Assembly (NCBI GenBank): GCA_019914995.1
Contig: CM034127.1
Location: 11,470,001-11,534,000, forward strand
Source: Acanthochlamys bracteata
Taxonomy: Eukaryota > Streptophyta > Magnoliopsida > Pandanales > Velloziaceae
DNA length: 64,000 nucleotides
Reading direction: 5' to 3'
The position numbers and the translations under genes are program-made. Below are positions 1 to 55,139 of the stretch, in pieces. A model generated the notes under the pieces. That model did not search any database, had not been told where the DNA came from, and saw only the letters and a program-made list of their open reading frames with translations. The first letter of the stretch is position 1; each line of letters opens with the position of its first letter.

Positions 1-8
1 TCTTACAG

Positions 9-1574
9 TGGATGGAAGACTTAAAGTTGGTGAACCTATGCATTGACTGCATTGCTTCAAAGGCTACCATAGACACTTCAGAAGTTGAGTGGTCATATAC
101 CTATAACCGACAAAAGCTTCCATCTGAAAATGGCCTTGACGCAAATTGGAATGGAGTAAAAAAGCAGCAGTTAGTGCCGAAGGACTGGTGGGTTGAAGAT
201 CTCTGTGAACTAGAGATGAATTTCTACAAGCGGGTTATCACAGAAATTAAAACCAAGGACACAGTACCAGGAGAAGTTATAGGAGAAGCACTTAAGGCTT
301 ACATTTACAGAAGGCTTCCTGGTTTTAAAAAAGGTACTTTGACGATACATCACAATGATATTATGAAATATCAAGTGATGCTGGAAATGATTGTGTGGCT
401 TTTGCCAGCTGGTAAGGGCTCAGCCTCTTGTAGTTTCTTGCTGAGGCTACTGAGAGCTGGAAACTTGCTGGATTGCAGTGAAATTGCCAAAAGAGAGTTG
501 ATAAAGCGAGTTGGCAGTCAATTAGAACAAGCTTCTGTGACTGATTTGTTGATTCCTTCTCCACAAGGAGACAGCACGATCTACGACATAGATGTTATTC
601 TGAGCATAGTCAAGGAATTCACCATGCAAGTTGGTATTACAAGCCAGCAGATTATGGAAGTGGTTCATGAAGTGAAAAGCCCCTCTTCAGTCCCAAATGG
701 ATCAAAGCTAGCTGTTGCAAAGGTAGTGGACGGGTGTCTTACTGAGGTTTCAAGGGACCCAAATCTTCCTCTTTCAAAGTTCATTAATCTTGCTGAGTTG
801 GTCTCAGCAGACTCTAGGCCAGTGCATGATGGACTTTATCGTGCTATCGATATGTATCTCAAGGTAACTGTCAAGAACCATCAAGATATAATCTTATGCC
901 TAAGTGTTGGTTCCGGAGTTTATTTTGACAGTTTGAAATGCAGTTTTTTCTTTTTGAAGTCTCACATTTATGGATGTACTGTTTTATATCTCTTTCATAA
1001 GACAAAAGAATATCTTCATCATCTAATACTTGATTTTCTTTGGGTCCTAAAACAGGAACATCCTGACCTGAGAAAGAGCGAGAAGAAGAAGATATGTGGA
1101 TTGATGGACTGCAAGAAGCTATCTGTTGATGCCTGCATGCATGCTGTGCAAAATGAGCGGCTCCCACTAAGAGTGGTTGTCCAAATCCTCTTCTTTGAGC
1201 AGGTGCGGGCATCTGCAACTGGAAATGCTTCTAATCTTTCAGAAAGTGTCCATTGCCTCCTCCCTCGAGAAAATGGGGGCTCAGATGGGAGCTCAAGATC
1301 TGCTCTGACTACTAACACGGAGGATAACTGGGATGCTATTCCTAAGGGTGAATATCTCATGTCTCTCAAGACATTGAAGTTAAATGGTAATGTTGCTGGT
1401 GGAGAGAGTGGACGGAGTAGTGTGAGCAGTGAAGCTCACAGGAATGGCGATCAAAGGAACAACAGCAAAGTGAAAGCTATCATGAGGCCAAAAAAGATAC
1501 TAAGCAAGCTATGGTCTGGTAAAGAACATGGAGTTGATCAGAAGAGTAGCTCAGATACTTCAGAGAGCCCATGA
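9..1574 (+). CDS. NPH3/RPT2-like BTB/POZ protein, C-terminal part (5' end outside window)
   Basis: This is the C-terminal part of an NPH3/RPT2 (NRL) family protein, closest by eye to the At1g67900 group. Family members are plasma-membrane-associated adaptors in phototropin and auxin-transport signalling and are thought to act with CUL3 ubiquitin ligases. Visible exons are 9-863 and 1056-1574, giving 457 residues; the first visible exon follows an AG acceptor at 7-8. The NPH3 domain fills most of it: the segment starting WMEDL, the conserved YDIDVILSIVKEF, and after the junction EHPDLRKSEKKKICGLMDC and LPLRVVVQILFFEQVR. The tail is Ser-rich and ends PKKILSKLW followed by an acidic/Ser stretch, as in this subgroup. 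The N-terminal BTB domain must lie upstream of the window. The 192-nt intron 864-1055 has no in-frame stop, so a naive ORF runs through it. Family assignment is firm; the exact orthologue is inferred. Confidence 0.93.
   Translation, partial: WMEDLKLVNLCIDCIASKATIDTSEVEWSYTYNRQKLPSENGLDANWNGVKKQQLVPKDWWVEDLCELEMNFYKRVITEIKTKDTVPGEVIGEALKAYIYRRLPGFKKGTLTIHHNDIMKYQVMLEMIVWLLPAGKGSASCSFLLRLLRAGNLLDCSEIAKRELIKRVGSQLEQASVTDLLIPSPQGDSTIYDIDVILSIVKEFTMQVGITSQQIMEVVHEVKSPSSVPNGSKLAVAKVVDGCLTEVSRDPNLPLSKFINLAELVSADSRPVHDGLYRAIDMYLKVTVKNHQDIILCLSVGSGVYFDSLKCSFFFLKSHIYGCTVLYLFHKTKEYLHHLILDFLWVLKQEHPDLRKSEKKKICGLMDCKKLSVDACMHAVQNERLPLRVVVQILFFEQVRASATGNASNLSESVHCLLPRENGGSDGSSRSALTTNTEDNWDAIPKGEYLMSLKTLKLNGNVAGGESGRSSVSSEAHRNGDQRNNSKVKAIMRPKKILSKLWSGKEHGVDQKSSSDTSESP
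864..1055 (+). other. Stop-free intron of the NPH3-like gene, length a multiple of three
   Basis: The intron starts AAG|GTAACT and ends AACAG|GAACA. It is 192 nt (64 codons) and open in the gene's frame. The encoded stretch is rich in F, L, Y and H and unlike any NPH3 domain, while the spliced junction gives the family-typical order YRAIDMYLK then EHPDLRKSEKK. It is therefore called an intron rather than coding sequence. Confidence 0.85.
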
Positions 1575-3501: not shown

Positions 3502-4904
3502 TTAAATTTCACGTGGGTCTACAAAGATGGAGCTCCCTGGCGGCGATTTCGTCCAGTCACTAACGTCTCCGTCTTCGTTGTTTAGTTTCTTGGCGCACCA
3601 CAAGTCCTCAGGGCACGATAACTTGCGCCAGTGCGGGACGCCTATGCGCAACGGCTGACAAGACGCGACCTCCGTTACGATCACTTTACAACCCCCGTCG
3701 CGCGCCATGTTGTGCGCGTACCTGCATAGCTGCCTGACCATGTCCACTGCTTTCGGTCCTTCACCGCCGATCCCGTATAGAAAGTAGAATCCGAACGGTT
3801 TGAATAGGTTAGGTACTGATGGTAACTTTAGCCACGGCATTGCACGATCGGCTAACCTTGTCATTGTTGCAATTGCTCGCGTTGCTGCAGAAACTCCACA
3901 GACTTGAAGCTTGAAGACTTCTTTGCAGTTCCACAAACTCATTACTGTCCATGACTCTGGTGGGTTGGAAATAAAAGCTTGCATACTGGAGAAACGGTAT
4001 TGATGCGGAACAGCGATGTAGGTGCCAAGTGAAAGATGGTTATTGAGAATAGCATCTATATCAGAAGGAAAGAACTCGACGGAGGAGAAACGCGAGCGGT
4101 AGAGTATCGCAGCATCAGAAGGGGAGACGGAAATTATGTGGATTTTTCGATGACGAGAAGAGAGAGGAAGACGGTGCCCGGAGAAGACGGGATGGACGAG
4201 AACACAAGGCGTTCTGAATTTGGAGTACCCGCAACGGGTAGTGAACAGCTTCAAGGATGCTTCGTTTTCCTTGTCGGTAGCCATGTACGAGTACTCCGCT
4301 CCGTTTGATCCGAACCATTCTTCCATTGCCTTTACCAGCTTCACTCCAATGCCCATTCTCCTAATACGTAAACAAAAATTTTCACTTTCACTATACTGCT
4401 GATTATCTCCTATTATTCATCGATATAGAAATCGATCGTGTGCATGGAACTATAAGCAACATACATACCGGTGAGATGGAGATACACGGAGGCCGAGGAT
4501 GTAACCGAGCTTTGTATGGAACGATTTATACCCACCGCCGCAGCTTACTGTTTTAAGGCATCCTCGTACAACGCCGACTATTTCTTTCTCCGGCCCACCG
4601 ATTGTTTCTGCTACCTATGCTTTATGAAATTACAGAATTGAAATCAAACAGTCGATTTTCGTGCATGAATATGGAATATAAGAAGAAGAGGAAGAGAGTA
4701 ATAGAGCTATACGAGCATGAGGGATGACGGAGAGTTGCGGATACGGGATAAAGGATCACCGAGGAGGTCGGTGTAAAGAGAGACCTTTCCGCTCGGTCCA
4801 ACTTCACAAATCCGGTCGATGAACTCCGCTGCACGACGGTCTCTATCAGAGTCATACTCCCTGATGGTCACCGCCACAGCTTTAACTGGTGAATTTTCTT
4901 CCAT
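3502..4904 (-). CDS. HLS1: HOOKLESS1-like probable N-acetyltransferase
   Basis: A GNAT-fold protein of the HLS1 family, nuclear regulators of apical-hook formation and of ethylene, auxin and light responses; HLS1 is proposed to acetylate histones. Three exons read on the minus strand: 4904-4713, 4614-4469 and 4360-3502, with GT-AG introns of 98 and 108 bp, giving 398 residues, close to the usual length of about 400. Residues 15-52 hold the family block from REYD through CEVGPSGK and the YTDLLGDP motif. The acetyl-CoA loop RRMGIG is at about 113-118, split by the second intron, followed by MEEWF and NGAEYSYMATDKEN. The C terminus carries FEPFG-like FKPFGFYFLYGIGGEGP, EDLWCAKKL and the terminal DWTKSPPG...FVDPRE block. 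The ATG at 4904 begins the family's conserved N terminus. It could be HLS1 itself or an HLS1-like paralogue. Confidence 0.93.
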
Positions 4905-17900: not shown

Positions 17901-19972
17901 TAGGTTGGACTGGAGCTGGAGAGGAACTTTGCTGGAGAGGCTGCTAATCTTGTAAAATCTTGTGGGAAGTCAGCTGTTTCTCTTGTCGCCCTTTTAGCTC
18001 GGCATTTTCCTGGTTTGCTTCCATGATATCTGGTTAATTTTAGTAATCGTTTATCAAGCAACTGTAGCAATTCTTATCGTATTCATAATCTTCTCCACAT
18101 GCTATATGCAGCATATAGTGCATCGTGTGTCATATAAATAAGAAAAGGCATGAGAGATGAAGTTTTACAGGATTTCTATTGAGAGTTGCAGTAGCTTCGG
18201 ATTTTTTTCCAAGTGAAATTCTTTTCTCCAGAATTACCTATCTCATCCGCAAAAAATGACAGCTTCCACAAGGCAATAATGCGACATGGCATGCTAAATC
18301 CTTGGGGCTAAAAGTCAAGCAATAGATTTCTGTGTTCATATTTTCCTTATTAAGTGGTTTGACCTTTAAAATTGATCTCATTTGTCAAATTTTCATTTTT
18401 TTTTTCAAACCAATGTGAAACTTCATAGAAAATGGGTTTCAAGCTATCTTCTAGAATTGCAATTTAGGTGGCAAATATGCTGTCATTGATGGTAGCGATC
18501 AAGGGAAAATGTTAGAGTCATGTCATCATTGTATTCTGGTTTTCTCTATGAATGATCAGCTCTTGGTCTTCATCAAGAAAGAGAATAGAATGCTCTATGC
18601 TCTAGATGTAAATAACAAAATGTTGCTAAAGCTTGGTGTTTTTCTGCATTAAGAGAGTATTCAAGACAAAAAAACGAAAGATCAGGCAGATGATCCTTCT
18701 CTCGGTGGTTGTTTTATGTGCCTGGGAAACTCATCTTTTGTTTTCACTTAGATGAATTTATTGGAATTGTCGTATGGTTGTATGCTCCGTCTTAGATCAT
18801 TTGTCATTTGTAAGTGTGCCGGGGAAACTCATATTATAATGAAATGCTGATACATTTGAAGAAATACTTTCTCAACATTGATTGTTGTACTAGGTTTTCG
18901 GGATCACACATTATATAAGGGTCATCAGATTTTCTTATATAAAAGGGCACAAATCTTTGCCTCTGACTTGTGGAATGCATTCAAGGGCCAAGGTTATGGC
19001 AACTTCTATGATATAAGCTCCATCACAATCTTTGCAGACTACATAGTTCCTGCTGTACTCAGGGATCTGGGTGTACTGAGATACAGTTCAGCAGTAGCAA
19101 ATACTATCGATAATAAATATGAGATAAGTTCTGGCAGTGAGGAAGAAGTTGAGCTACGTGCCTGCTCTGTTCATGCAGTTGAAAGAATGAGAGAACTACT
19201 GCAAAAGAAATATGGTATCCAGGTACCTAGGTTGCTTTTTTATGGTGTTTTGATTCATTTTATAGTGTTAATATGTGGCACTATCTTTAGCCGACTGATT
19301 TATCTTTTCTTTTCCTCCATTTACATCTAATAGTGAAATGCTCATTGACTACATAAAGTTCCTTATAACTTCCAGATGCTATAAAACTTTCTATTCACTG
19401 TTTTTGATGCTTGGTCACACTGATACTACAGGAATCTCAGATGACTAGAACTATCATTCTATATGCCTATCGAGATTGAGTCAGTTATCAGATGTAATTA
19501 GAATAAGGTACCACATATAGGGGGACCGCTCCTGAAAAAAGTCCTTGATCAACATTGGGTAAAAATTATTATATTATAGAGAATCAGAAAATGTTCTGAA
19601 TGAGGAACATTAATAGAAGTATGTGATATCTTTAACTAAAAAAACACATTGAGCTCCATATCACTTCCGTGTTTTCTTAAAACATAAATTTTACTGTTAT
19701 ATGAAAGAAATTTAGTGCGAATACTCTAAAATCAGAACTCCGATTGTAAGGTTATTATTTTCAACCATCCAAAGTTACTTTCTCTTGTATTTCAACATAG
19801 CATTACCTTAACATAAATTTGGCATGAGTTTGCTGATACCTTATTGTTCTGACATTGCTGAGTGGATGCATGCACACAGCTCTTGAGTGTTGAATTGGAT
19901 CTGTGGCTCTGGGCAACTGGCGTTAAGAACCTGTCACTGAAGCACCACCGAACACTCTCGGTATATTATTGA
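14935..19972 (+). CDS. QNG1: Queuosine 5'-phosphate N-glycosylase/hydrolase-like salvage protein (DUF2419)
   Basis: A plant member of the QNG1 (human C9orf64, DUF2419) family, which releases the base queuine from queuosine monophosphate so that it can be reused for the wobble position of GUN-anticodon tRNAs. Plants cannot make queuine and rely on salvage. Seven exons join in frame: 14935-15004, 16443-16586, 17447-17545, 17647-17723, 17904-18012, 18894-19222 and 19880-19972, giving 306 residues, near the family length of about 340. Family blocks are in order: DALNFCFWP, ending exon 2, matches animal DTLNFSFW; LYKRAQIFASDLW and DISSITIFADY match FYKRAQILVADTW and DISSITMFADY; EEVELRACSVHAVE and the end, a D-W-W-W-H-H-R pattern closing in SVYY. 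The first exon is short and its ATG agrees with the frame of the rest. Function is inferred from the family. Confidence 0.9.
15005..16442 (+). other. First intron of the QNG1-like gene
   Basis: A 1438-bp GT-AG intron. Its middle (about 15720-15840) has higher GC than its flanks and, on the minus strand, short open stretches such as LQLDYTIDEKGHPPK; this may be a captured gene fragment, but I do not recognise it. The rest is unremarkable. Confidence 0.5.
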
Positions 19973-26200: not shown

Positions 26201-29200
26201 ACTTAAGCAATTCAAAGCTAAAATTCATTTCAATAACCCTATATGTATTTACAGTAATAATGGTCTACTTACATAACAGCCACTCCAAAGAAAAGTCGAA
26301 ATTACAATATAAGTACATCAAGCCAAAGAACTTCTTTCCTTCAAATTGAAAACTCTTTGCAATGCTCCCTCAATTTAGACTAGTTATCTTGATGACTTAA
26401 TGTCTTTTGGAAGCCTTGAAAACTAAAATTACCTTAACTATCAAAATTTGATAGCTTGAAATATCAGAATGCAAGGTAGAAACTGAAGGAGAACTGAAAA
26501 GATTGGGATGATGATAATGCATGGAAAAAGCATTTTAGTGCTCATGCTACTATCTTAAAATCTTTACAGTAAACACAATCACTTTACATTAAGGTTTACT
26601 AAAGAATAATGAATTAATAAGTGATAGAAGTGCTTAAAGTTAAAAGTAATCAGCTAAGTACTTCGATACTGCCTCAAACTAACACAAGGCATGTAAACCA
26701 ACCAATGATTAAATCCAGTATAACATCTATAGTTGCGATAATTATCCTCTATCATCTTTGAAAGTTACAGTTTCATAACCCAATCACACTATGTAGTTCA
26801 AGATATAGAGCAGAATCATTTTATGCATGCTATTATACTTTCTAAGCATACATTTCTCATTCGAGAAACTAAGTTAGGTTTGTGATGAATTTGTTAGTTT
26901 GCCACATCCACCCTCAACGCATTATATGAAACTTGTGAGCAAGAGGAAGCCATCTCTAATCTGTGAAAGCAATTTCAATTGAACAATATTGCAGTTGAAG
27001 ACTTGAAGTTTCTATGATGTATTTACTTTTGGAGCCTTTGCTCAAACATCATTACTTCATCTTATATATTTATGGTTGTAAATATGATCAAACACATAGT
27101 ACTTGTTGGAATTCTAAAACAATCTTCTTTAATGAGAGTTCCAAGCCTTGCCAAGTCACTCTAAGGATGAAGCAACTACTACTTTCTACAGCAGATCTGA
27201 ACTCAAGCATTTTATATTTTACTTTAATGAGATAATTTGGTTCTTATCCGTTATTAATAACCATCATAGAAGCAACTAGAGAGAGCAGACACTTGATCAA
27301 TTTAAGGATTTGTTGTGGGATCACGAACATGCCTATAATAGCAGGCCCAATTGAAATCTCTTGGACGCTAAAACTATAGCTACTTGAACCCCCACGAACA
27401 GATCTTCGTTATTAGAGAATAATATATCCTTGCATTTTTTGTTATAACCATGTGGTGGTTCAAAAACAAAGAGAAGCACATGCAAATTCCAACTGATTCT
27501 TGTTGGGAAAACCTGAGATAGCTACTTTTGCATCATATCGTAGAAGCTTTTATCTAATGGCATCTTTATTGCTCAAACTCATCACTATTACAACTATAAG
27601 TGCACTTCAATCAAAATACCAACAGAACATGGAAAGGAATTCTAAAAAATAAGAAGCAAATAATACTTCATGACAATCATTGTTGCTTCAAAAAATGAAA
27701 GAAATAAGAATGTACGTCTACAATGTAGTTGGTGTTAAAACATCGACCATGAAAATCCCTTAACAAACCAATGACATAGGAAGCCGTGCAGCTTGTATCA
27801 GACAGACAAATAGCTTAAGAAGTGATACTGTACGAACAAAATGCAGTATATGGGGTGCAAGAGATAAATGAGATATGAAATCATTTTACACTTTTCCGAA
27901 TACACTTACATCATAGAGGACTACGAGAATAACCGATATATAATAAGAGCACCTTCTAGGAGGATAGGACAAGAATGCAGAACAAAAAGATTACTGAAAG
28001 AGGAAATTTGAATTACCTCTGCTGTCTGTTCATGTACAGAACGAGCCTGCTTGGTTCTTGCATTGACCCACCGCCACTGCACATGCCGGTTATCATACAA
28101 ACGCAGCAGGTGTGCCTCCTCGATCCGGTTCTCCCCTTTCTTTGCCCTCCTCACTTCCGCCGCAAAACTTATAATTGAAGGTGCATTCACCAGTTGCTGA
28201 CTTCCAGGACTCGCAGTTGCTACTGTACTCCCATTCCTCCCCCTCATCGGACTCACCATTCCCCTTGAAGGAGAACTCACAGCAAGCTTGTTAGGTGAAG
28301 AGGGTCGTACCGTTACTCCACGGAGCGGTGACGAAGATGACCTTGGAGATAAAGCGGGGCTACCCACCAATGATCTCCTTGCAGCTGAATTCACTGCCGT
28401 TCTGAATACAGGTGACGGCATTGGCGTTGCAGGAGTTTGCGGCAATCGCCGGAGCCGATTATTCGTCTCCTGCCAAAACCTTGCAGGCACACTGATTCCT
28501 CTAGGCAAGCTTCTCCTTATCTGCTGCGGCGCACTGTGCTCAAGATGATTCCCGGAATTGCTTCCAGAGGAAACGCTATCCGTATCCGAAGAAGCCGCCG
28601 AGTGCAGCTCCGACACATCGAAGGAGTTCCGGCGTGTTCTATCATCATCAAAAATCATGGAATGCTGCTGAAGCAGCCGCATTGCAGCGATAACCGGTTC
28701 TTTTCTCTCCAGCACAGTGCAATCAATGCTGCGGCTAAGATTTGGTTTTGCAGCTGCAGGCCACCGGTGGTGTCTCGAGTTTTCAGGCTCAGCGGTTCTT
28801 GTTGGCGTGCTAGCACGATGGCGCGCTGGAGAACCCCCGCTCCCCGCCGAGCGGGTTTTGCTCGTCTGGTAGAAGAACGATCCACCTTGAAAAGAAACCG
28901 ACAGACTCCTCGTCATGGTACACAGCGCTCTGGCAGCTGCTGACGTGGCATCTCCGGAGGCAGGTGTTGTCGCCGGTAGCGGCGATGATCGATGACGCTC
29001 CGCAGAGTGAGATCTGCGTCCGGGAGTGGAAGGATGCGGGGTGAGCATAGGCGAAGGGTACCTCCGTGAAGAAGAAGAAGAAGACGCAGAAGAACTTCCG
29101 GAACTTGAAATGGTAGAGTTAGAAGAGGAGTTAGAGGAGTTAGAAGAGGAATAAGAGGAAGATAAATATCTCGAAGAGATCCGCTTGGACTTTGGTCGGC

Positions 29201-29306
29201 GAGATGAAACCGCATTATCTTGTTCCGAAGGAATCAACGGCGGTCGATTCGGATTACCTCCGGTAATTTCTTCCGCCGCCGGTTTCTGTACCACCGCGGC
29301 TACCAT
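23228..29306 (-). CDS. QWRF motif-containing protein (augmin subunit 8-like, DUF566)
   Basis: A QWRF/DUF566 family protein, related to augmin subunit AUG8 and EDE1, which bind microtubules and influence cell division and growth. Six exons on the minus strand: 29306-28017, 25723-25604, 24019-23903, 23813-23724, 23484-23377 and 23296-23228, all joined in phase 0, giving 597 residues. The long N-terminal exon is basic and Ser/Pro/Arg-rich and disordered, with SSRYLSS near the start and a long Ser-only tract. The namesake motif is at residues 410-413 as QWRW. The rest is helical: NLYNAWLTISELRDSV, ILKGQMAYLEEWS, DRDHSSSLSGA, STLRLPVVGGAR, SAVDVMQAM. Start: the frame is open further upstream, but only a GTG, not an ATG, is available before 29306, and family members begin MVAA as here. 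Closest by eye to QWRF1/QWRF2; which one is not resolved. Confidence 0.92.
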
Positions 29307-32300
29307 TGTCTTGTCCAGATCTACGGTCACATCACCCCGTGGGGAGCACCGGAGCTTAACTCCACTTCTTCTTCGTCGGAGTTAGTTGAGTTAAAATAGT
29401 TAACTCTGCTCTGTCTGTCAGTAGTACTGATGTATCTGTGTCTGTCTGTCAATCTCACTCATCAGTGCTTTGCTTTGCTTCGGTTTCGGCATTGCTGCTT
29501 TGCTACGTTAGAGAGGAAATAGTGAGGGTTAACAACTTGGAAAAACTGAGCTTTATTTTTAAATTAATTTATAATTTATCTTATTAACTCCAATGCAAGG
29601 TGCACTACTAAATTCACCACTGTACTACCGCTACTGATCTGTGAAGAAGAAAAATTAGGGTTAACGGAGTTAAAGGGAATAACTTAGAATCAGTTAATTA
29701 CGCTTACTATTATAAAGTTAATCAATTAACAGTATAAGAAGAGTTATTTAAAAACTTGTGAATAATTATTTGTAAATGAAATAAAGAGGCAAATATAGGA
29801 GTTTTGAGTTGCCTATTAAAAATATGTCTAATAGGAAATTTAATTGAATTTTTAAGAAAACAAGTAGGCTTTTAGTTAAAAAATCTTTATATAATAATTT
29901 AAAACATAAATCTTCTATATTTTTTTATTTATAAAGTTTTTTTCAATATTGTATAAGATGTTTTCACATATGCGAATGGCAATATAAAATTGTTTAAACA
30001 ATTGCCAACAGCTCCAAATAGTGTAGGTGAGGTGTGGTGACCGGAGGTGAGATAACGGTGTGGTTATGAGTGTAGCAAGTAGATCTATCGGAGAATTGGA
30101 CGAGAACGGGCAAGTCCATTCGGTGTGGGACCGAATTTATAAGGTGACGTGTGGGTGATTAGTTTTAACGGGTCGGATATAATTTGTTAAAGGAGAATGG
30201 AAATCCGCTAAAGAAATATTGGGAACTGTAAACTAAACTAGTATCTCTAAAAGTTGAAGAAATAAGTTGGACACATGAACCTGGAAGCAAACAAAAGAGA
30301 ATTTTAATTTGTTTAATTAAAAGAAAGAAATTTTGCAAAATGGGTCCACAACAATGGATACGCAACTATTGATTGAAATGTTTGTTTTTTGTCGTTTGTT
30401 ACAAAAGCATAAACAAAAACTTTCTGTTTTGTAAAACAAGAAAGCATGATTAGAAATTAGATTAGAAATTAATCAAGGGATTATGTTGAATAAAGAATAA
30501 GTTCCACATCTTCAAAAAGGCCGTAATCACAATGTTAGCTTCCAAAATAATAATAATAATAGTGTGACTTAAATTCATGGTCACCGGTATATGATTTGCA
30601 AAAACTTTGATTACCATCTAAATCTATACTTTATCATTATTGTAATTATTAATACACACACCTTAATGAACATTATTTATATGATTGGTTTTTCAAATAA
30701 GCATAAACAAGTGACTCAAACATTTTTGTAATTTTTCCAAACATGTACTACACATGACGCACCTATGTCATTGCATCGGGTCACACGTTCTATTATGCCG
30801 TCGGTATTTTAGAATACTTACAAAATATTTTTATTATATTTTTAAAAAATAAATATTATAATATAATAATTTTTATATTTTTATTAATATTTTTAATTAA
30901 ATTTGTTATATAGACTTATTTAAAAAATATTAAAAAAATATTTGTTGAAAAGTTTCGAAAAATAATGAAAAGAGCATCCTAAATGGCATTGGTGCTAACG
31001 ACTGTATAGGTTGATTTTTTTTTTTTGCACGACGTGTGTTCAAATGTTATTTTCATTAAAAATTGTTTTGGTCGACGTTCTTTTCAATCATCATTTCATA
31101 AAAAGGTGCAACATCACGATTTGCTTTTTGTGTGCATGGACAAATTAAGGTTGGGTCGATTGGTTAGCTCTTGTATCTAATATGTTAGTGAGCAACGAAG
31201 TCAGGCAAAGCAAAAATTTGAAACTTAAGGTTGGGTAACTAATGTTGGTTGGAGCAAAACCACATAAATAATCCGTAGTCACCTAATTAATAAAGGTCAA
31301 TTGGTAGAGGAACATGATTGTTTTGTTTAATTAAAGAATCACGTAATTAATATTATGTCTCAATGTCCATAGAGCGGTTGAGAGTTGCATTTATGCTATA
31401 AAAAAAAAAGAAAAACAAACCTCGTACGCATTACCTACTATTTAATATTTTCAAAAAAATTAACTTCTGTAGATATTAATATAAAAATTATATTAAATCT
31501 TTACATATTAATACATTTAAATATTTTAAAAGATTCGATATAATATTAGATATTGATGAGATGTGCTATTATTTCTTTAAAACATAAAACAAATAGTGCT
31601 AATATTATGTTTAAATAATTAGTCTTTCTAGCTAAAATTATTAGCCTTTCAGAAGAATAGATTCATGTTCTTATATGACAATATAAAAATTCATAATATA
31701 TTGTCAAATGTGTGATTATTTTTCTACACAATATTTTAAAATTAACATTCAAAACAATTAAGGGGACGTTGAAAGTGCTTATAAAATATAATTTTTTTAA
31801 AATAAAAAATATTTTTGTTCTTTTTAAAAAATAAATTTTATTTTTTATCTTCAAAAAATAATAAAAATATATAATAAAAAAATTTTATTATATAAATTTT
31901 TATATTTTCTAAAATTTTAAATAAATTATATAAATATTTATAAAATATATATTAAAAAATAAAAAATTAAAATGAAACGTTTGAAAAATGCAATCCCGCT
32001 CACTAAATTAAGAGTTAAAGTTTAATTTATATATATATGGATTAGTGACGTCACCTATTTGGTCAGTATTTAGTAATGTAAAAATATTTTTTCATAAGAA
32101 TTAGGAGAATATAAAGAGAGAGAATTCTTTCATAATTATTTGTCCGGATTTTTATTTTTTGATGATTATTGCATCTATATTATTATAAATTACGTGTATA
32201 GCTAAGAAAGATAGTTTCATCAACTTAAAATTAAGTGTCAAATTAAACCAAACCTAACTAGCTAATTTATTGAACTAAGCTGTTGTCTTAAAGAAGGACT

Positions 32301-34845: not shown

Positions 34846-36521
34846 TTATGGCGTCCCGTGCCTTGGGTGACTCGGTGGTGTTGGATTCGATATATATGGC
34901 ATGAGAGGAGTTCCATGCTCTATTGGTCCTGCTTTGACAGCAGCCTTTGAGCTTGGTGAGGGATCGAATTGGGGGTAGTCCTCCATTGTTAATCTCTCCA
35001 TGCTCTCCTTGTGCCTAGAGATTTCTATGACGTACGAATGTGCCTGAGAAAGAAAATATTCAATGATGCACTTAACTACGTAACTCAAGGCTCTACGATA
35101 CTCGCGTGGAAGTGCTCAGAACCAATCCTGAAATTTCTCCTAGGCGTCACTAAATATTTCAGCAAGAAATCTATTTCATATACATACCTTTAGCTTCCTA
35201 GGAGCACAAGTTCCTTCGGCATCTCCATCACATACTGTAGCTGAAATGCATTTTAATCAAAAACCTTGAAATGAGTTAAAGTTACTGACTTTGTGTATTC
35301 TTTAACACAGAACAACTAACACATTTTTATGAAACAAAAACTTGACGTTGCATAGCCTCGTATGTGAAGAAACAAACATCTTCATCAAACTTGGACGACA
35401 TTCATATAAATGCATTCTAAAAAACTTAAGCCAATGCTCCTACAAATAGAATTATAGTAGTATAGCAGTTCCAACATTAATAAGATAACATCATTCAGAT
35501 TTGAATTAGGATCATGTCTTTATAATTTTTCTCTGTTTTCATTTAACTTTTTTTCTTTTATTTTCAGGCAAAGTCTTTCTTGCTTGGTATACTTGATAAA
35601 TTTAGTTACCATTGCTGATATTTTGTTTCTGATAAAGCTGGACTAAGAAGGACACTTATGTTCACTAACATAATAACTATCATCAATTCATCAGACAACA
35701 GAAATAAAAACTTTACTATGTAAAATTTTGCTTTGCCATTTTAAAATTAACTACGAGAAAGTACTAAGAATCACCAGTGATATGATTACAGGAAGACTTT
35801 AATACACAGATACAAACTCATAGCAATCTCTAAGAACAAGGAATAGAATAAAAGAGAAACAAGCTCACAGTTTTTGTAAAGTATGACTTCTGATAGTATC
35901 CTGAAGTTCCCAACATATGGTCAAGAACAAATTCCAAGAACAATTCCCACCAAAAAAAAAAACCATGGGGAATGCAATTCCTAATTAAATAAATTTTTAT
36001 TTGGAATTTTATCGACTGACTAATTGATTCTAGTATCTTCTGATTATCCAATAAAGGAAAAGCTTTGGAATCTGTAGATGAGGTACAAAAAAGAACTATC
36101 TTCTTACCTTTTAGAAAGTGTTACTTTATTTTCCTTCATCGTCTTTCCAACATTGTCATTCAATGTACGCAGATTGATTGACATAATTAATATCATAATG
36201 AGAAAACATTAGGTACTTATATTTTCACATAACATAGAAGCAACAACAGATTGCAATAACTAGAAGATTAGAACTACCAGAAAAGTTAAAACCAAGAAAA
36301 CTGATGAAGATTTCAAGTAACCATAAAAGACTAACTTCAAACAAAAACTATATGTGTGTTTAAGTACAAGAAATTGCTCGCATTCTGTAGCATTTCTAAC
36401 AAACAAGATTAAATGAGACCTGAAAATTTCTACGCGCAGTACCTATGTTGCTGCTCAAAGCAAGGGAAGCAAGACCTGTTTCAACCAAGACGAAGAAAAC
36501 CAAAAACGCCAGAATTCTCAT
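34846..36521 (-). CDS. Small secreted protein, possible peptide-hormone precursor (unassigned family)
   Basis: Three exons on the minus strand, 36521-36443, 35240-35188 and 35043-34846, join to a 109-residue protein with consistent phases (first intron after the first base of a codon, second between codons). Residues 1-20 are a strong signal peptide (MRILAFLVFFVLVETGLASL). Then come a short acidic segment with two Cys (VCDGDAEGTC), a basic APRKLK, a helical AHSYVIEISRHKESMERL, and a Pro/Ser/His-rich tail holding EDYPQFDPSPSS and ending SHPRHGTP. An acidic residue plus Asp-Tyr before a Pro-rich stretch is the pattern of tyrosine-sulfated plant peptides (PSY, CIF, RGF), but the rest matches none that I know. 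The first ATG in frame gives the signal peptide directly. Secretion is well supported; hormone function is inference. Confidence 0.72.
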
Positions 36522-39170
36522 GTCTTGTTTCTTTCGATTTCCTTCAGAGTTAGAGAAAGAACTCAGCTTTAAATAGTTTGCTTTAAGCAAGACTTGAAAA
36601 GCAATGAAATGAAATAAAATGATAAAAGGTGATTATGAAAGCAAACCACCGCCAAAGGAATAGTCTTTTCAAAGATCTGCCAGAAATTCTGGGGAAGGAG
36701 CAATTGTCCAAGTTCCATCACCTGCTTCACTGCCCACGCATTTTCTTTAGTTTATTTCTTTGCTTCTGATTATAAAATAAACGATCATAGACTATATGTA
36801 GCATATATCATCCAATTTTATTATGCATAAGTAAAAATTAATAGAAGGTTATGAAGAGGAGTGTGTTCAACATTAATGGAAGGCAATTGAATGCAGTGAT
36901 GGAAATCGAGCCAGAAACAGTGAAGTAAATGGTGCCCCTGCACCGCGTGCTAAGCTATGCTCTGCTGCTACGTGCATGGCTTGGTAATTTGTTTTTGTTT
37001 GGGCAGAAGAGAAATAATGGTGTCCAGTTCATGAAACATGCTTGCTAGATAGCTAAAAGAAATATTGAACTTGAGCTGCTACAAGTGAAGAAAGAGAATT
37101 CATTTGAACATTTCCAACTCCTGATTTCTTTTCTCTTCTTCTTGTGGTACGTTGGCTACAAGTCGGCTAAAGTTGAAATTTCTTTTATAAAAATGAAGTG
37201 ATGATTTCGTTGCTGTAATTCATCAAACACTTAATATCATCAGACTACACATATTAAAATGGTGTAGGAAATCAAACAACAATAACAAATTCACTTCAAA
37301 ATAATAGGAAAGTCAAATTAAATGCCTGGAAATCTTGTTACCTTCTTCGGAATCGGAAAGCCTGCTGCCGCCTTCTGAATTTCGAGTGTTTTTAGAATTT
37401 TATCTCTTTCTTAACAATTATTTTTCACAAAATCTTTTGCGGTACTATAAAAAAAATTTTAAAAATTTAAAAGGCAGAGTTGAACTATACGTTATAAAAT
37501 TATAACATAAATTTATATTTCTAAAAACTTGCAAGTCTTTTTTCACAAAAAAGTTTATATTTTAAACTATCTCTAACGACCTATGTAACATGAAGGAGAC
37601 GTTTGGGAGTGTTTTTGAAATAAAATTTTTCTGAAATAAAAAAATTTTTTTTTTTGAAAAACGAGCTCTATTTTTTTTACTTCCAAAAAAATAATAAAAA
37701 TATGTAATAAAAAAATCTCATTCTGTAGAATTTTTTTACACTTTCTAAACTTTTAAATAAATTTTTTATATACTTATATATATTAAAAAATATAAAATAA
37801 AAAAAAATTAAAAAGTAGCGTTTCAAACGCTCTCGAAATTCTTCTATTCTAATATTAAAATCATAGTCTCTCTTCCAAGTCAAACAACATTGTTAGCAAC
37901 TAACGACAGTTATCAGTTCGAATTTCAAAATTTTCAACAACTCACCAAGAGCATTGACAAATTTCATATCAATTCAAATAAAATATAATTATATATTGTA
38001 GTACTTAGTCGAGATTAAATTGAGCCTTCATTTGGTAGAGCTTATCAATCAGACCAATAAATAAAGCCTAATAAAAGTTTAATTCGTCCGTTGATAAACA
38101 AGCCCAATAAAGATGGGGCCGAATTCCATGGATCCACACATATTGAGAACCTTAATGTGCGGCCTTCCGCTACATAAAACACTTGATTAACTTCTTATCA
38201 TCTTGCTAGTGGAGCTTGATTTGCTCTTTACAATTAAATTAAGTACATACAATATGCACTTCATAGGAGGAAATGAAAATTTTCATATTAAATGTGACCA
38301 TTTTTGAAGATGTTCCAACTCAGAGCATCTCACAGTATAGTGTCAAAGTGGTGGATAAGATTTTGATGATAAGCTTTCATCTTTATTAGTAAACTTCACG
38401 CAAGGTAGAATAACTTACTGCAAACTATCCACAAGCCTAAAAGAATGAAAATTGGCATTGTAGATCAGTACAGGTAACGTCAACCCTCCAAACAGTTGGA
38501 TGCACATCAAATGTTTACATCCTCTCAACTATGAAGCTCAAAAACATATGATTATGAACTACATACATTATGCATAACCACTGCAAAAACCTTGAGATAT
38601 CAGAGAAGTACAAAAACACTTCTGAGATTTTAAGGTACAGCTCCGTAAAATAAAAGTATGTTCTTTTGCATCCGAAAGTAATTTTTTTCAATAGAAAGTT
38701 ACTTACGTGATGAGTTTTTATGTTTGTAATAATTTATTCTGTAACTTATTTTTGCATAAACTTACTTCAATTCTTCGAAAAGTCACATTTTAGAAAGCCA
38801 CTTTAAGAAAAAAACACTCTAAAAAAGCAAGCTACTCTATATGTATGTACTACCTTGCCATTATATAGAAACTTTTTGGTGTAATATTTCTCTAATAAAA
38901 TATAAGAGAGATTAAAGCAGCTAATTTTGTGATTGTTCCTTTCTAATTAGGAGTACACAGCAATCAAAGTAATTCCACTAAAGATAATTTAATAAACATC
39001 AAACCTATAATTATAGCCCTAAACAAAACAGATCTGTTAGTCCTGAAAACAAGTTCAAGATAAGAGGATTATTACTTACAAACAAATGGACGCATCAAGA
39101 TTTCCATGCCTGCACAACCAAGCAATGAAACATTATAATTTCTTTAATTCTTTGCTTTGTTTTGATAGGA
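36522..39170. other. Intergenic region between the secreted-protein gene and SCL32-like gene
   Basis: No gene seen. The left few hundred bases should hold the promoter of the secreted-protein gene. A well-preserved MITE-like copy lies at 37596-37834. The right end should hold the 3' untranslated region of the GRAS gene. Confidence 0.6.
37596..37834. mobile_element. AT-rich inverted-repeat element (MITE-like) copy
   Basis: Left end GAGACGTTTGGGAGTG, right end TTTCAAACGCTCTC, i.e. inverted terminal sequences around GCGTTTG. The interior carries GAGCTCTATTTTTTTTACTT, AATAATAAAAATATG, AATCTCATT, TTTTTTTACACTTTCTAAA in the same order as the copies at 44011 and 55873, so the three are clearly one family. 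Confidence 0.75.
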
Positions 39171-40544
39171 TTAGCAAGGTGCCCATGCAGAAGCAAAGAC
39201 AACGTTGTGCCCTTTCCAAGTAAGCACAAGACCATCACCTTCCTCCCTCTTCATTCCCCACCCTGCCGCATGCTCATCAAGCATTCCTTTCACCTCAGTC
39301 GCCGCTTCTTCGCCGAACGCCGCCGTTCTAAATCCTGCCCCTCTCAGTCTCTGCACCCACTTCGCTCTATTCTCCTGCCGTTCAACTCTTTGCAACCCCT
39401 CTTGTGCTATAACATTCTCAATCTTCCATCCAATTCCTGCTTCATGCCATCTCCGTTGTTCACTTCCTTTCGGAAGCAATGCGTCCGCCACATCGTAAGG
39501 TATCCACATGTAATTGAACGCTGATCTCAGCCTGTCCACGACATCCTTCGCCGTTAAATCCACGTCCTCGTCGACTACGGTCATTAGTGTTGGCTCTAGA
39601 CTCCTGATCGCTTTCAAGAACATCGATCGTAGTGATATATGGCGATGAGAGCTTGATCCAGCTGACAGAGAACTGATATTATCTTCTGGAATGCAGTGAA
39701 GCATCATCTGGCAGTTTATCACCAATGCCTCGCCTTCAGTGACTAGGCGGTGCACGCGAAGGTGTTCGATCAAATTGTTAAGCCCATCGGAAGGGCTCGA
39801 TTCTACGATTCTGAACTCCATGGCAATGTTACGTGACTGCGCAAACTTCACTAACTTCTCGCCTAGCTCTTCGTAGGACATGTCTAGAGCTAGTGGCGGA
39901 GAGTTATGCCTCGGTCCTTGCACAGTGAGCCGGATCATCTGCGGGCCTTCAGGACGGCTTGCGAGTGTGTCAATCAGTGTAGGCATCTGCATGCAGTATG
40001 TAGTGCTTAAATCAACAATGTGGACGGTGGAGAACCCATCAACGGCGTCTGCAATAGCTACATTCGATGCGGTGTAGCCGAACCGGTGCCATGGAGTAAG
40101 GTCGATGAAGCTGGCAAACTCTACTGCCGAGAGACGGCGCGGTGGGTAGTCCAGTGATAAAACTCTACTGTTGGCCACAGCTGCGAGCGCCTTACATGCG
40201 CCTGTACGAGAGGCGCGGGCAACAAGTGCGCGGAGAAACCCTGCAGTCAGGCGCTGGTTTGAGTCACCGTCAGGCGGGGCAATGTTGTTGAGTACCCAAA
40301 TGAGTTGCTGAGCAAGAGTTGAATCGTTGCCCTCAACGGCGTTGGCGCAGTGAACCAGTAATTGCTCCATGGAGGCTGTACTAGAGAAAGTTCCTAGTGA
40401 AGATTTTACTGTGGAAAGGCTGGTTTTGGAGGTTGTAAAGCCTGGCCATGTCCGGGCTGTAAGATGTAAACGAATATTATCGTCGCGACCACCGTCAAGG
40501 TCTAGCAGCGGCGGTGGTGCTGGGCTTTGGCTGAATTGCATCAT
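39171..40544 (-). CDS. SCL32: GRAS-family transcriptional regulator, SCL32-like
   Basis: A single-exon GRAS protein of 457 residues, nuclear transcriptional co-regulator, most like Arabidopsis SCARECROW-LIKE 32. The N-terminal 58 residues are variable and disordered. The GRAS domain then starts at about MEQLLVHCANAV (59-70), the first leucine-heptad region with the LLxHCA-type motif. VHIVD at 174-178 is the VHIID motif, followed by CMQMPTLIDTLA, the SCL32-type variant. A second Leu-rich stretch follows VINCQMMLHCIPED, then the PFYRE-region block with FNYMWIPYDVADALLPK, and the SAW block near the end (WVQRLRGAGFRTAAFGEE and LTWKGHNVVFASAW). The frame opens with two adjacent Met codons; the first is used. 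It is complete and undamaged. No miR171-type target site was noticed, as expected because that site belongs to the HAM/SCL6 branch. Confidence 0.93.
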   Translation of the reverse strand: MMQFSQSPAPPPLLDLDGGRDDNIRLHLTARTWPGFTTSKTSLSTVKSSLGTFSSTASMEQLLVHCANAVEGNDSTLAQQLIWVLNNIAPPDGDSNQRLTAGFLRALVARASRTGACKALAAVANSRVLSLDYPPRRLSAVEFASFIDLTPWHRFGYTASNVAIADAVDGFSTVHIVDLSTTYCMQMPTLIDTLASRPEGPQMIRLTVQGPRHNSPPLALDMSYEELGEKLVKFAQSRNIAMEFRIVESSPSDGLNNLIEHLRVHRLVTEGEALVINCQMMLHCIPEDNISSLSAGSSSHRHISLRSMFLKAIRSLEPTLMTVVDEDVDLTAKDVVDRLRSAFNYMWIPYDVADALLPKGSEQRRWHEAGIGWKIENVIAQEGLQRVERQENRAKWVQRLRGAGFRTAAFGEEAATEVKGMLDEHAAGWGMKREEGDGLVLTWKGHNVVFASAWAPC

Positions 40545-42421
40545 GTGGTTTAATCAACAAATCAGTTGATCCAAAGAAGAGATTATTAGTTGTCTGCAGA
40601 ATATCAATATTGTTGTCTCCAGGCCGTGTATGAAGTATGGAAGGAAAGAAAATCTACATGAATTATTGCAGACAAACAACGAGTTGACTTTGGTAAGAAT
40701 CATTGTACTGACTTATTTTGTGTACAAAAAGCTGCTGATTGACATACAGAAGAAGGAAAGAGAGATGAGGTTTTAGTCCTGAGCAGCTTCATGTCTGCAA
40801 GCAAAGAAAGCTTGAAGAACCTTCTAGCTAGCTAGCATCTGCATGCAGTGAGATCATTCCTGCAATTAACCAACACCTCTCAAACAGAAACCTGCTAAGG
40901 TAGCAAGCACACCTGAAGAACTGCAGTAAGAAGACTCTGATCTGCTCTAATGGGGTCTTCTTCTCTGAAGATATGAATATTGAGAAGAGATTAAGAAACA
41001 TATGAACAGAAAGAAAATGAAGATAGCGGTAATGTTTTTTTTTTTTTTGGGAGCATGTGAAGGACATGAGGTGGTGGCTGGCCATATATGGCACAGTCTG
41101 TACTTGATGAGAAGGGTTCACTCACTCACGGGTCAAAATCATATACAAATGATTTGGTCAGTTTGATCATTTAGGCGTAGAGGACCCCTGCCCGTTTGAG
41201 CTACTAACACCATGCATGCTCTCGTAGGTAGAATGAAGCCAACTGCTAATTTGGATCCCATATCTTCAGAATTTTTGCAGTACAGTAGACAATGACTCGC
41301 TTGTATTCTTCTATATACATATACTCTCCTCTCCATTCTTGCGTTCTATGCCATTTTCTCAATATTATCATAATACAGATGGATAAGGTCGGCAAAAAAA
41401 TACTACTCCTTTCTGCAGTATAATTGATCAATGGATCTGTATGATCATATACGTATAATAAAAAAGGTAATTGTTCCTAAACCTAATTCGATGGCTAGGG
41501 TTAGATAATTTCTTCCTGATCTTAATAGAAACTAGAAACAATCAAAGTATGAGATGCATGTAAGAATGATGATGATTAACTAATAAATAAAACTATGATT
41601 TATACACGTATGTTTATTGAGATTTATGTGGCTTTGTTCGACTAGTAGTGGAAATCCTTGTCAGAAACCTTGTATATGGTTGGGTGGGTACGCAAGGTAC
41701 GTAATGCATGCATTGCAAGATATTCAAAATTATATATGGACCCCTTAATATCGATCTATATATATTATGATAGAATAATAATGACCTTATGATGAATGCT
41801 AAAACAAGAAACTTTACATCTGATACATACATGCAGATAACTTTCCACATATTTTAATTTTGGGTGATGTAGAAAACATGCACATGAAAGTAATATTTTC
41901 AAGTTTCTGTAAGTCCCTTCTGTGACAACTACTCTAAATCAACCAGATCAGTTTTCTAACTTGTTCTGTTTAAAAATCGGATTAACGAATTCGATCACTT
42001 TGATAAAACTGATAAGAGTGCATTAAATTACCTGGTAGATTCCATCCATGCATGGCAAATAATCTGTTGTAGTCCTGAAAGTCAAGTGAAAACTTTCCCT
42101 TCCATGCTATATGACCTGCTTAATTGTGCTTGTGTCCAGAAGCTGAAATAGGGTACACAATCATGCCAGCTCTTGCCTAGAAAGATAGACAGTCCCAACA
42201 TATATGCATGAGCTACTACTGCCAATTGATCAACATAGCTAACTGAATGCAACACGTGAGAATGCGATTCACGCAGATCTCTACGTTCGTGTTCCTGCAG
42301 GGAAAGGGATCAAAGGACACCTCTCTCAAAAAGCATGGACGGTCCTGCACGTGGTCCTCTTTTTGTTCCTTTTGGAAACTATTTAAGTTTTTCCCCAACT
42401 CTTCCAAAGATAATACACTAC

Positions 42422-53512: not shown

Positions 53513-55139
53513 TTAATTGAACGCCGCGCAATTGCGTCGAATGTTGCCTCGGTTTCCGGTCTTAACTCCGACGCGACCCAATTTGGTCATAGCCGTTATG
53601 AAGGCTCGGTTAAACGCAGACGGGCTTCGAGCCCACAAGTTTACGGTCGGCCTAGACCGTCCGTCGGTGAACAAGATTTGGTCGGAAGTGAACAATCCCC
53701 TTCCGCGTTGTAAGTTCTTGAAATACTGGTTGTCGAATGTCCGTGGAGTAACTGGGTCCATCTGGATGGCGATAGCAGGGTTAACGTTCCTCGGGCACAT
53801 TTGCCTGAGCTGGGCTGCATAGTTCCGGTTTAGTGTTGCGTCAGGTCGGCGTCCGAATATCCGGTTCGAAAACTTGTTGCAGTGGGAGAAACCCAGTGTG
53901 TGCGCACCTGCAACCAATTTTGATCGTTTTGTTTGTTAATTACCAAAAAAAGTAAGCTATGGGTAAGCTATGATGAACTATGAGTTGGTTAAAAGATAAC
54001 AATCTATAAGAGGATGGATGGACGTTTGATTTAGGTCATAGGTGAACAGATTAATTGGTCCCAGGCTCAGCGGGTGCAACCCATCATATATATATATATA
54101 CGTATTGTGTCTCTTTCTTAATGTCGGGAATATTAACTTAGATCCTATGGGTAAGCTATTTTATTTAATCAGAGTCATGATGCATGATGGCGCAAACATG
54201 CGAGTGATGGATATATATGTTCTATGACTCACCACGCAAACGAGTAGACTAGCTAGCTTTTCTTTTTATCAACAAAAACTTCATTGCATGTGAAAACAAT
54301 CGACTTTCTTCAAACAGTTTCATCACTAGCTAGCTAGGTAGCTGCTGTAGTGCAAATACTTAATTACCAGAGAGGGCAATCATGTCGGTCCGAGAAAGCC
54401 CCATCCTTGCGAACCTTGCCGTCAGTTGATCCAAGTGATGAGTAGGTTCCGGTAGGTTAACGCTAGACGCTCTTGAAACCAGCCCATCCTTCCGTCCTAG
54501 CTCCACCGCGTAGGAAGGTCCACCAGCCTGATTTCATCCATTTAACATTAATTGATCGTAATTATAAACTATTACATTTTAACCAACGGCATCGACGACG
54601 TTGAATTAATGAACGGAATATGATTTCAGTACTTACAAGAGCAACTACATCCCTAGCAGCCATGGCAAGAATATCAGCACAAGAGACCTTGTTGCGACAC
54701 CGAGGGATCGCGTCAAGTGCAGCCTTTGCCTTTACAACAGTGTCGAACCCGTCACCGGCTAGAGATAAGTTATCCGGGTGGTCTTTTTCTGCCTTGTTGT
54801 TCCCAGTTGAAGCAATCATTATCGATGCATCACAACCCTTTGTAGCAAATTATCACAATCAATATACAACACATATAGCGGATCACATCAGATAAATTCT
54901 GAAGTTTAAGGTTAAGTACTTACGCTAACGGCGCAGTCATGGAAGAAGAGGCGAAGAGTGGCCGGAACGGTGACGAAGGTCTGTTGAGCCTTTTGCCTGA
55001 CGACATTCCTAACAATGTTCTCAACATTGGGGCAAATATTGGCATAGAAATTTCTCCTCAATTGAGCTGATCCTCTTTGTGGCAAGAAACAAACACTGAG
55101 TGCCAGTACCAAGATCAACGCTCTAGAGTACTTCTCCAT
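53513..55139 (-). CDS. Class III peroxidase, peroxidase 16-like, secreted
   Basis: A complete secretory heme peroxidase that oxidises phenolics with H2O2 in the cell wall or vacuole. Exons on the minus strand: 55139-54924, 54837-54637, 54527-54368 and 53907-53513, the four-exon layout common in this family, giving 323 residues. A signal peptide covers about residues 1-25, cut before QLRRNFY. The distal site RLFFHDC has Arg63 and His67; the proximal heme ligand is His195 in [11 protein letters not shown]. The eight cysteines of the fold are present (e.g. C36, C69, C202, the GCDAS and SCADIL cysteines and the near-terminal NCAAFN). The residue after HDC is Ala, where Phe is usual. The sequence follows Arabidopsis peroxidase 16 closely ([47 protein letters not shown]). 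Confidence 0.95.

Follow-up and report, generated by a model that had tools for sequence, protein, structure and literature searches.

A very probable TWISTED SEED1 homologue, one of two in the genome of Acanthochlamys bracteata

Gene structure and genomic setting

The window analysed here, a stretch of 64,000 nucleotides from Acanthochlamys bracteata, carries on its minus strand a small three-exon gene whose product resembles the precursor of the peptide hormone TWISTED SEED1 (TWS1). The parts of the gene, with positions in the window, are as follows.

36443-36521, minus strand: exon 1 (79 nt), with the ATG, the putative signal peptide and the beginning of the pro-region; phase 1 at its end
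35188-35240, minus strand: exon 2 (53 nt), coding for ATVCDGDAEGTCAPRKLK of the pro-region with both cysteines; begins in phase 1 and ends in phase 0
34846-35043, minus strand: exon 3 (198 nt including the TAA), with the end of the pro-region, the mature peptide and the C-terminal tail
34915-34980, minus strand: predicted mature peptide DYPQFDPSPSSKAAVKAGPIEH, residues 66-87, delimited by alignment to the mature peptide of Arabidopsis TWS1 (AtTWS1) and by dN/dS
34849-34914, minus strand: C-terminal tail GTPLMPYISNPTPPSHPRHGTP, residues 88-109, which a cut between His87 and Gly88 is predicted to release

Both introns have GT-AG borders and lie in phases 1 and 0. The product, MRILAFLVFFVLVETGLASLALSSNIATVCDGDAEGTCAPRKLKAHSYVIEISRHKESMERLTMEDYPQFDPSPSSKAAVKAGPIEHGTPLMPYISNPTPPSHPRHGTP, is a precursor of 109 residues and of the small TWS1 kind, with a hydrophobic, signal-peptide-like start (MRILAFLVFFVLVETGLASLA, approximately residues 1-21/22 as judged by eye), cysteines at positions 30 and 38, and a predicted sulfation site at Tyr67 within the mature peptide. 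The initial annotation had described a protein of this length with a signal peptide, two cysteines, the motif EDYPQFDPSP and an HPRHGTP end, and all of these were found, the signal-peptide-like start by eye. Its reading of the product as the precursor of a secreted signalling peptide of the Asp-Tyr, sulfation-type class is likewise supported.

The proposed three-exon structure is real, as indicated by the minus-strand GT-AG sites and by a second copy of the gene with a matching plan, matching phases and an open frame. This copy (L002, C1:12181039-12182073) is likewise split into three exons (79, 59 and 198 nt) by introns with GT-AG borders, and its exon 1 donor, GTACTG, is common to both copies; the exon 3 match has 87% identity over 61 residues. 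A Pfam family was found for eight of the ten open frames tried in the window, and the neighbouring genes named in this way were the following.

3-1571, plus strand: NPH3
3505-4416, minus strand: GNAT acetyltransferase
18860-19327, plus strand: queuosine salvage protein
27927-29381, minus strand: QWRF
39177-40553, minus strand: GRAS
53519-54849, minus strand: peroxidase, in three pieces

Among the matches listed, the window from about 10 to 55 kb (10000-55000) is collinear with C1:12162-12198 kb, including the QWRF, GRAS and peroxidase genes. Synonymous divergence (dS) was 0.47 for the GRAS pair, 0.45 for the QWRF pair and 0.30 for the TWS1-type pair, the last value resting on only about 75 synonymous sites. 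Duplication of the whole block is apparently the simplest origin of the two copies. A few of the collinearity matches listed fall on repeats in other parts of that C1 stretch.

Similarity between the copies extends upstream of the coding sequence, and positions 36436-37111, which comprise exon 1 and approximately 590 upstream bases, align at 77%. Two elements were distinguished within this region.

36666-36725, minus strand: noncoding block that is conserved, 145-204 bases before the ATG; 57/60 bases identical in the C1 copy
36973-36978, minus strand: CATGCA, a hexamer of the RY type, with CGT after it (CATGCACGT); lies 457 bases before the ATG, in a stretch identical in both copies

RY-type CATGCA sites are targets of seed B3 factors. 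The kept CATGCACGT element is suggestive of control by such factors, which would suit expression in the embryo. Five simple promoter patterns were tried, and an L1 box was not found among them in either copy.

Selection along the precursor

Selection was measured on one paralogue pair, the window gene and its C1 copy, and was uneven along the precursor. Over residues 1-25, 20 of 25 positions were identical between the copies, with a dN/dS of 0.33, and a two-residue gap separates the copies immediately before residue 26. From residue 26 to residue 64 only 21 of 39 aligned positions were identical (18/39 differ) and dN/dS was 0.98. The mature peptide together with the glutamate preceding it (residues 65-87) had 22 of 23 residues identical and a dN/dS of 0.04, and the tail (residues 88-109) had 21 of 22 identical and a dN/dS of 0.10. 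Comparison of residues 26-64 with the mature peptide and tail taken together (2/45 differ) gave a Fisher p of 6.3e-6, and comparison with the tail alone a p of 5.5e-4, while the mature peptide and the tail did not differ from one another. Purifying selection is concentrated on the mature peptide and the tail, a distribution typical of processed peptides. The initial annotation had offered as a check that EDYPQFDPSP and the C terminus should be the most conserved parts of the protein, and on this one paralogue pair that expectation holds, for the stretch from EDYPQ to HGTP and the C terminus.

The two cysteines, which had also been put forward as features of the protein, are present but are not conserved. 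Because both are serine in the C1 copy, whose single cysteine sits elsewhere, in DQRCVTE, they are regarded as incidental and not as a feature of the design.

Between the two copies the tail is as constrained as the mature peptide. There is an outside chance, judged from this constraint and from a repeat of the cut-site motif at the end of the tail, that the tail is a second functional element, which might act as an inhibitory cap recognised by a subtilase or receptor or might be excised as a second peptide, GTPLMPYISNPTPPSHPRH. None of the tail strings searched were found in the open-licence literature, and the primary TWS1 papers outside that set may well discuss the tail; six further strings searched in the same literature returned only AtTWS1's own. 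Conservation of the tail on a par with the hormone is relevant to the question of why the precursors of TWS1 and CIF3/CIF4 have extensions at all. The tail closes with RHGTP, an echo of the EHGTP at the cut site 19 residues before, and both are kept in the C1 copy.

Match to TWISTED SEED1 and competing readings

The AtTWS1 mature peptide is given as DYNFPVDPTPTTKASIKPGPIEH within an 81-aa precursor (PMC11534595), and its protease sites, with the cut marked here by a slash, as MKVGLE/DYNFPV for SBT1.8 and PGPIEH/GTPLNP for ALE1 and SBT1.8 (PMC13082318). The end of the window precursor, TME/DYPQFDPSPSSKAAVKAGPIEH/GTPLMP, aligned to the AtTWS1 peptide and to both cut-site contexts, and in the alignment of RLTME/DYPQF-DPSPSSKAAVKAGPIEH/GTPLMP the string GPIEHGTPL was identical, with one gap near DY. 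Against the 35 residues of AtTWS1 used for this comparison, as printed in two reviews, the window protein scored 103 (shuffle maximum 54, with none of 2000 shuffles reaching the score) and the C1 copy 102 (shuffle maximum 46). When the 195.5 Mb genome was searched one way, with the AtTWS1 stretch as query, two places came up at E <= 10, one being the window exon (61% identity, E 4.1e-6) and the other its copy (63% identity, E 5.5e-6). Thirteen peptides, including two PSY and two RGF peptides, were compared with the mature peptide by simple global alignment, in which the raw, length-dependent score was 72 for AtTWS1 and at most 40 for the 12 other CIF, PSY and RGF peptides.

The mature peptide carries the TWS1 pattern DY...DPxP..KA..K.GPIEH, and the C-terminal extension (PIEH/GTPLMP here, PIEH/GTPLNP in AtTWS1) carries the TWS1-type GTPLxP after the His/Gly site. 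At the N-terminal cut (TME/DYP here, GLE/DYN in AtTWS1) the Glu/Asp-Tyr is kept and the Asn at P3', which has been linked to SBT1.8 specificity (PMC13082318), is not. From these alignments we regard the gene as very probably a TWS1 homologue, one of two in the genome. The gene shares the layout of TWS1, a divergent CIF-family member; the initial annotation had stated that the layout matched none known to it, but DY...DP.P..KA..K.GPIEH/GTPL.P is the layout of TWS1. Nor is the precursor undescribed, as had been supposed, for its end, from TME to GTPLMP, aligns with known TWS1, and the peptide that it carries is this plant's form of a known one and not a new hormone. TWS1-type genes have already been reported outside Arabidopsis, since a patchouli study names PatTWS genes; of the 33 species it covers, 29 had homologues of the CIF family, with those of spruce and ginkgo on the AtTWS1 branch (PMC11855783).

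Several wider searches accompanied this comparison. No Pfam family or PDB sequence matched the protein at E <= 10. When the motif was written as a degenerate DNA pattern with fixed codons it gave no genome matches, its own gene being missed too. Pattern matches numbered 9 in prokaryote genomes and 19 in viral contigs, and no microbial or viral mimic was confirmed among them by tblastn at E <= 1e-3. Two plasmid matches, with 30-34% identity at E 4 and 7, appear to be chance matches.

The closest relatives to be weighed against TWS1 are the CIF peptides. The soybean xylem-sap peptide GmXAP3 is described as a CIF homologue, DYGRYDPSPSLSKPPFKLIPN (PMC9369194), and the CIF1/2 peptides end in PPFKLIPN with no C-terminal extension (PMC11534595, PMC13082318). 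Four CIF1/2-like places with the PPFKLIPN ending or a near form of it were found in the genome.

L010: CIF-like peptide DYGSYDPSPAMVKPPFKLIPN
L011: CIF-like peptide DYGRYDPAPAFGKPRFKLIPN
L012: CIF-like peptide DYGTYDPTPALERPPFKFIQN
L013, C14:365771-365830: CIF-like peptide DYGRFDPAPAFRKPRFKLIPY, which ends in IPY and not IPN and whose open frame has only 24 aa

Three of these four loci (L010-L012), read by eye, have the plan of the window gene, in which the exon for the signal peptide ends in phase 1 and is followed by a short middle exon and a phase 0 last exon. The one PSY locus of four that was worked out, L014, likewise read by eye, has phases 1 and 0, and because it reads alike the intron phases of 1 and 0 are not proof of CIF membership. 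The single exon plan that L010, L011, L012 and L014 appear to have may point to a common origin of the sulfated peptide families.

That the window gene encodes a canonical CIF1/CIF2-type peptide of the root Casparian strip would fit its DYxx[FY]DPSP start, which is common with GmXAP3 and close to the CIF-like places of this genome. The PPFKLIPN ending is nevertheless absent, its place being taken by GPIEH and a 22-aa tail, while the four other places have that ending or its near form; a search with GmXAP3 at E <= 10 misses the gene, and among the 13 peptides GPIEH occurs only in AtTWS1, so that we consider this reading very unlikely. A PSY or RGF precursor, to which the Asp-Tyr, the Pro/His content and the phases 1 and 0 of L014 (by eye) might point, has a probability close to nil. 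The PSY motif, DYXXXX[AP]NXXHXP as cited (PMC7913133), is absent from DYPQFDPSPSSKA. RGF/GLV/CLEL peptides are DY peptides with a length of 13-16 aa and HN or NN as their last residues, and this precursor ends in HGTP; the scores against PSY and RGF peptides were 1 to 23, compared with 72 for TWS1.

Two further readings set the resemblance to known hormones aside. According to one, the gene would belong to an undescribed family of sulfated peptides that came to resemble TWS1 by convergence on Asp-Tyr and a Pro-rich composition, for which the lack of a Pfam family or PDB chain at E <= 10 and of tail strings in the open-licence literature searched can be cited. We give it very little credence, as AtTWS1 shares the DY, DP, P, KA and K together with an unbroken GPIEHGTPL across the C-terminal cut site, none of the 2000 shuffles reached the alignment score, and AtTWS1 matches only this pair at E <= 10. 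The other holds that the encoded secreted protein is decaying or structural and has no part in peptide signalling, and would account for the Pro-rich tail and for residues 26-64, which are without evident constraint (dN/dS 0.98). Conservation is uneven, with dN/dS at 0.04 in the mature peptide and 0.10 in the tail, and both copies have kept an open frame and their splice sites, which makes decay or a structural role highly improbable.

Predicted processing and comparison with known systems

In the cited accounts of Arabidopsis, the TWS1 precursor is produced and secreted by the embryo, and its tyrosine becomes sulfated; the cut before the Asp is made by SBT1.8 and depends on this sulfation, and endosperm ALE1, and also SBT1.8, cut after the His. 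A sealed cuticle parts the ligand from the protease, thereby ending the signal (PMC11534595, PMC13082318, PMC13022542). In Arabidopsis the peptide helps the embryo to seal gaps in its waterproof skin. With the window gene read as a TWS1 homologue, secretion, sulfation of Tyr67, two subtilase cuts and binding to GSO1/GSO2 are likely here also. The precursor would be secreted by the embryo, Tyr67 would be sulfated by TPST, an SBT1.8-like subtilase would cut between Glu65 and Asp66, and an ALE1-like subtilase of the endosperm would cut between His87 and Gly88. The freed 22-residue peptide would then bind GSO1/GSO2 at the embryo surface and lead to deposition of the embryonic cuticle, and the signal would end once a sealed cuticle kept ligand and protease apart. 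We infer each of these steps beyond the sequence match by carrying it over from the Arabidopsis work. On this basis a small and easily missed gene would take its place in the known dialogue between embryo and endosperm that checks the embryonic cuticle, and the genome has retained two copies of the likely ligand.

Set beside other sulfated peptides, the product shares most with TWS1 and only parts with its relatives. PSY peptides have the Asp-Tyr motif as here, but their [AP]N..H.P core is absent. The DYxx[YF]DP[STA]P start of the peptide described here recurs in GmXAP3 and at the CIF-like places in the genome, and CIF1 and CIF2 begin with DY; the latter two end in PPFKLIPN with no extension, whereas this peptide ends in GPIEH and is followed by a 22-aa tail. 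CIF4 (AT1G28375) is cited as having an extension cut between His and Gly, at VPH/GSL (PMC13082318), and so resembles the present precursor in this respect, while the middle of the peptide differs, with 8 identities in 23 columns. Arabidopsis TWS1 (AT5G01075) is likewise a small secreted precursor with Glu before the Asp-Tyr start, DPxP..KA..K.GPIEH and GTPLxP after the His/Gly site. Differences from AtTWS1 lie in the length of the precursor (109 aa here, 81 aa in AtTWS1), of the mature peptide (22 and 23 residues) and of the tail (22 and 27 residues, the latter from the published numbers of 81 aa and a cut after residue 54), and in the third position of the peptide (P3'), where Pro stands here and Asn in AtTWS1, which counts against a full transfer from Arabidopsis. 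The Acanthochlamys bracteata genome has two copies of the TWS1 type.
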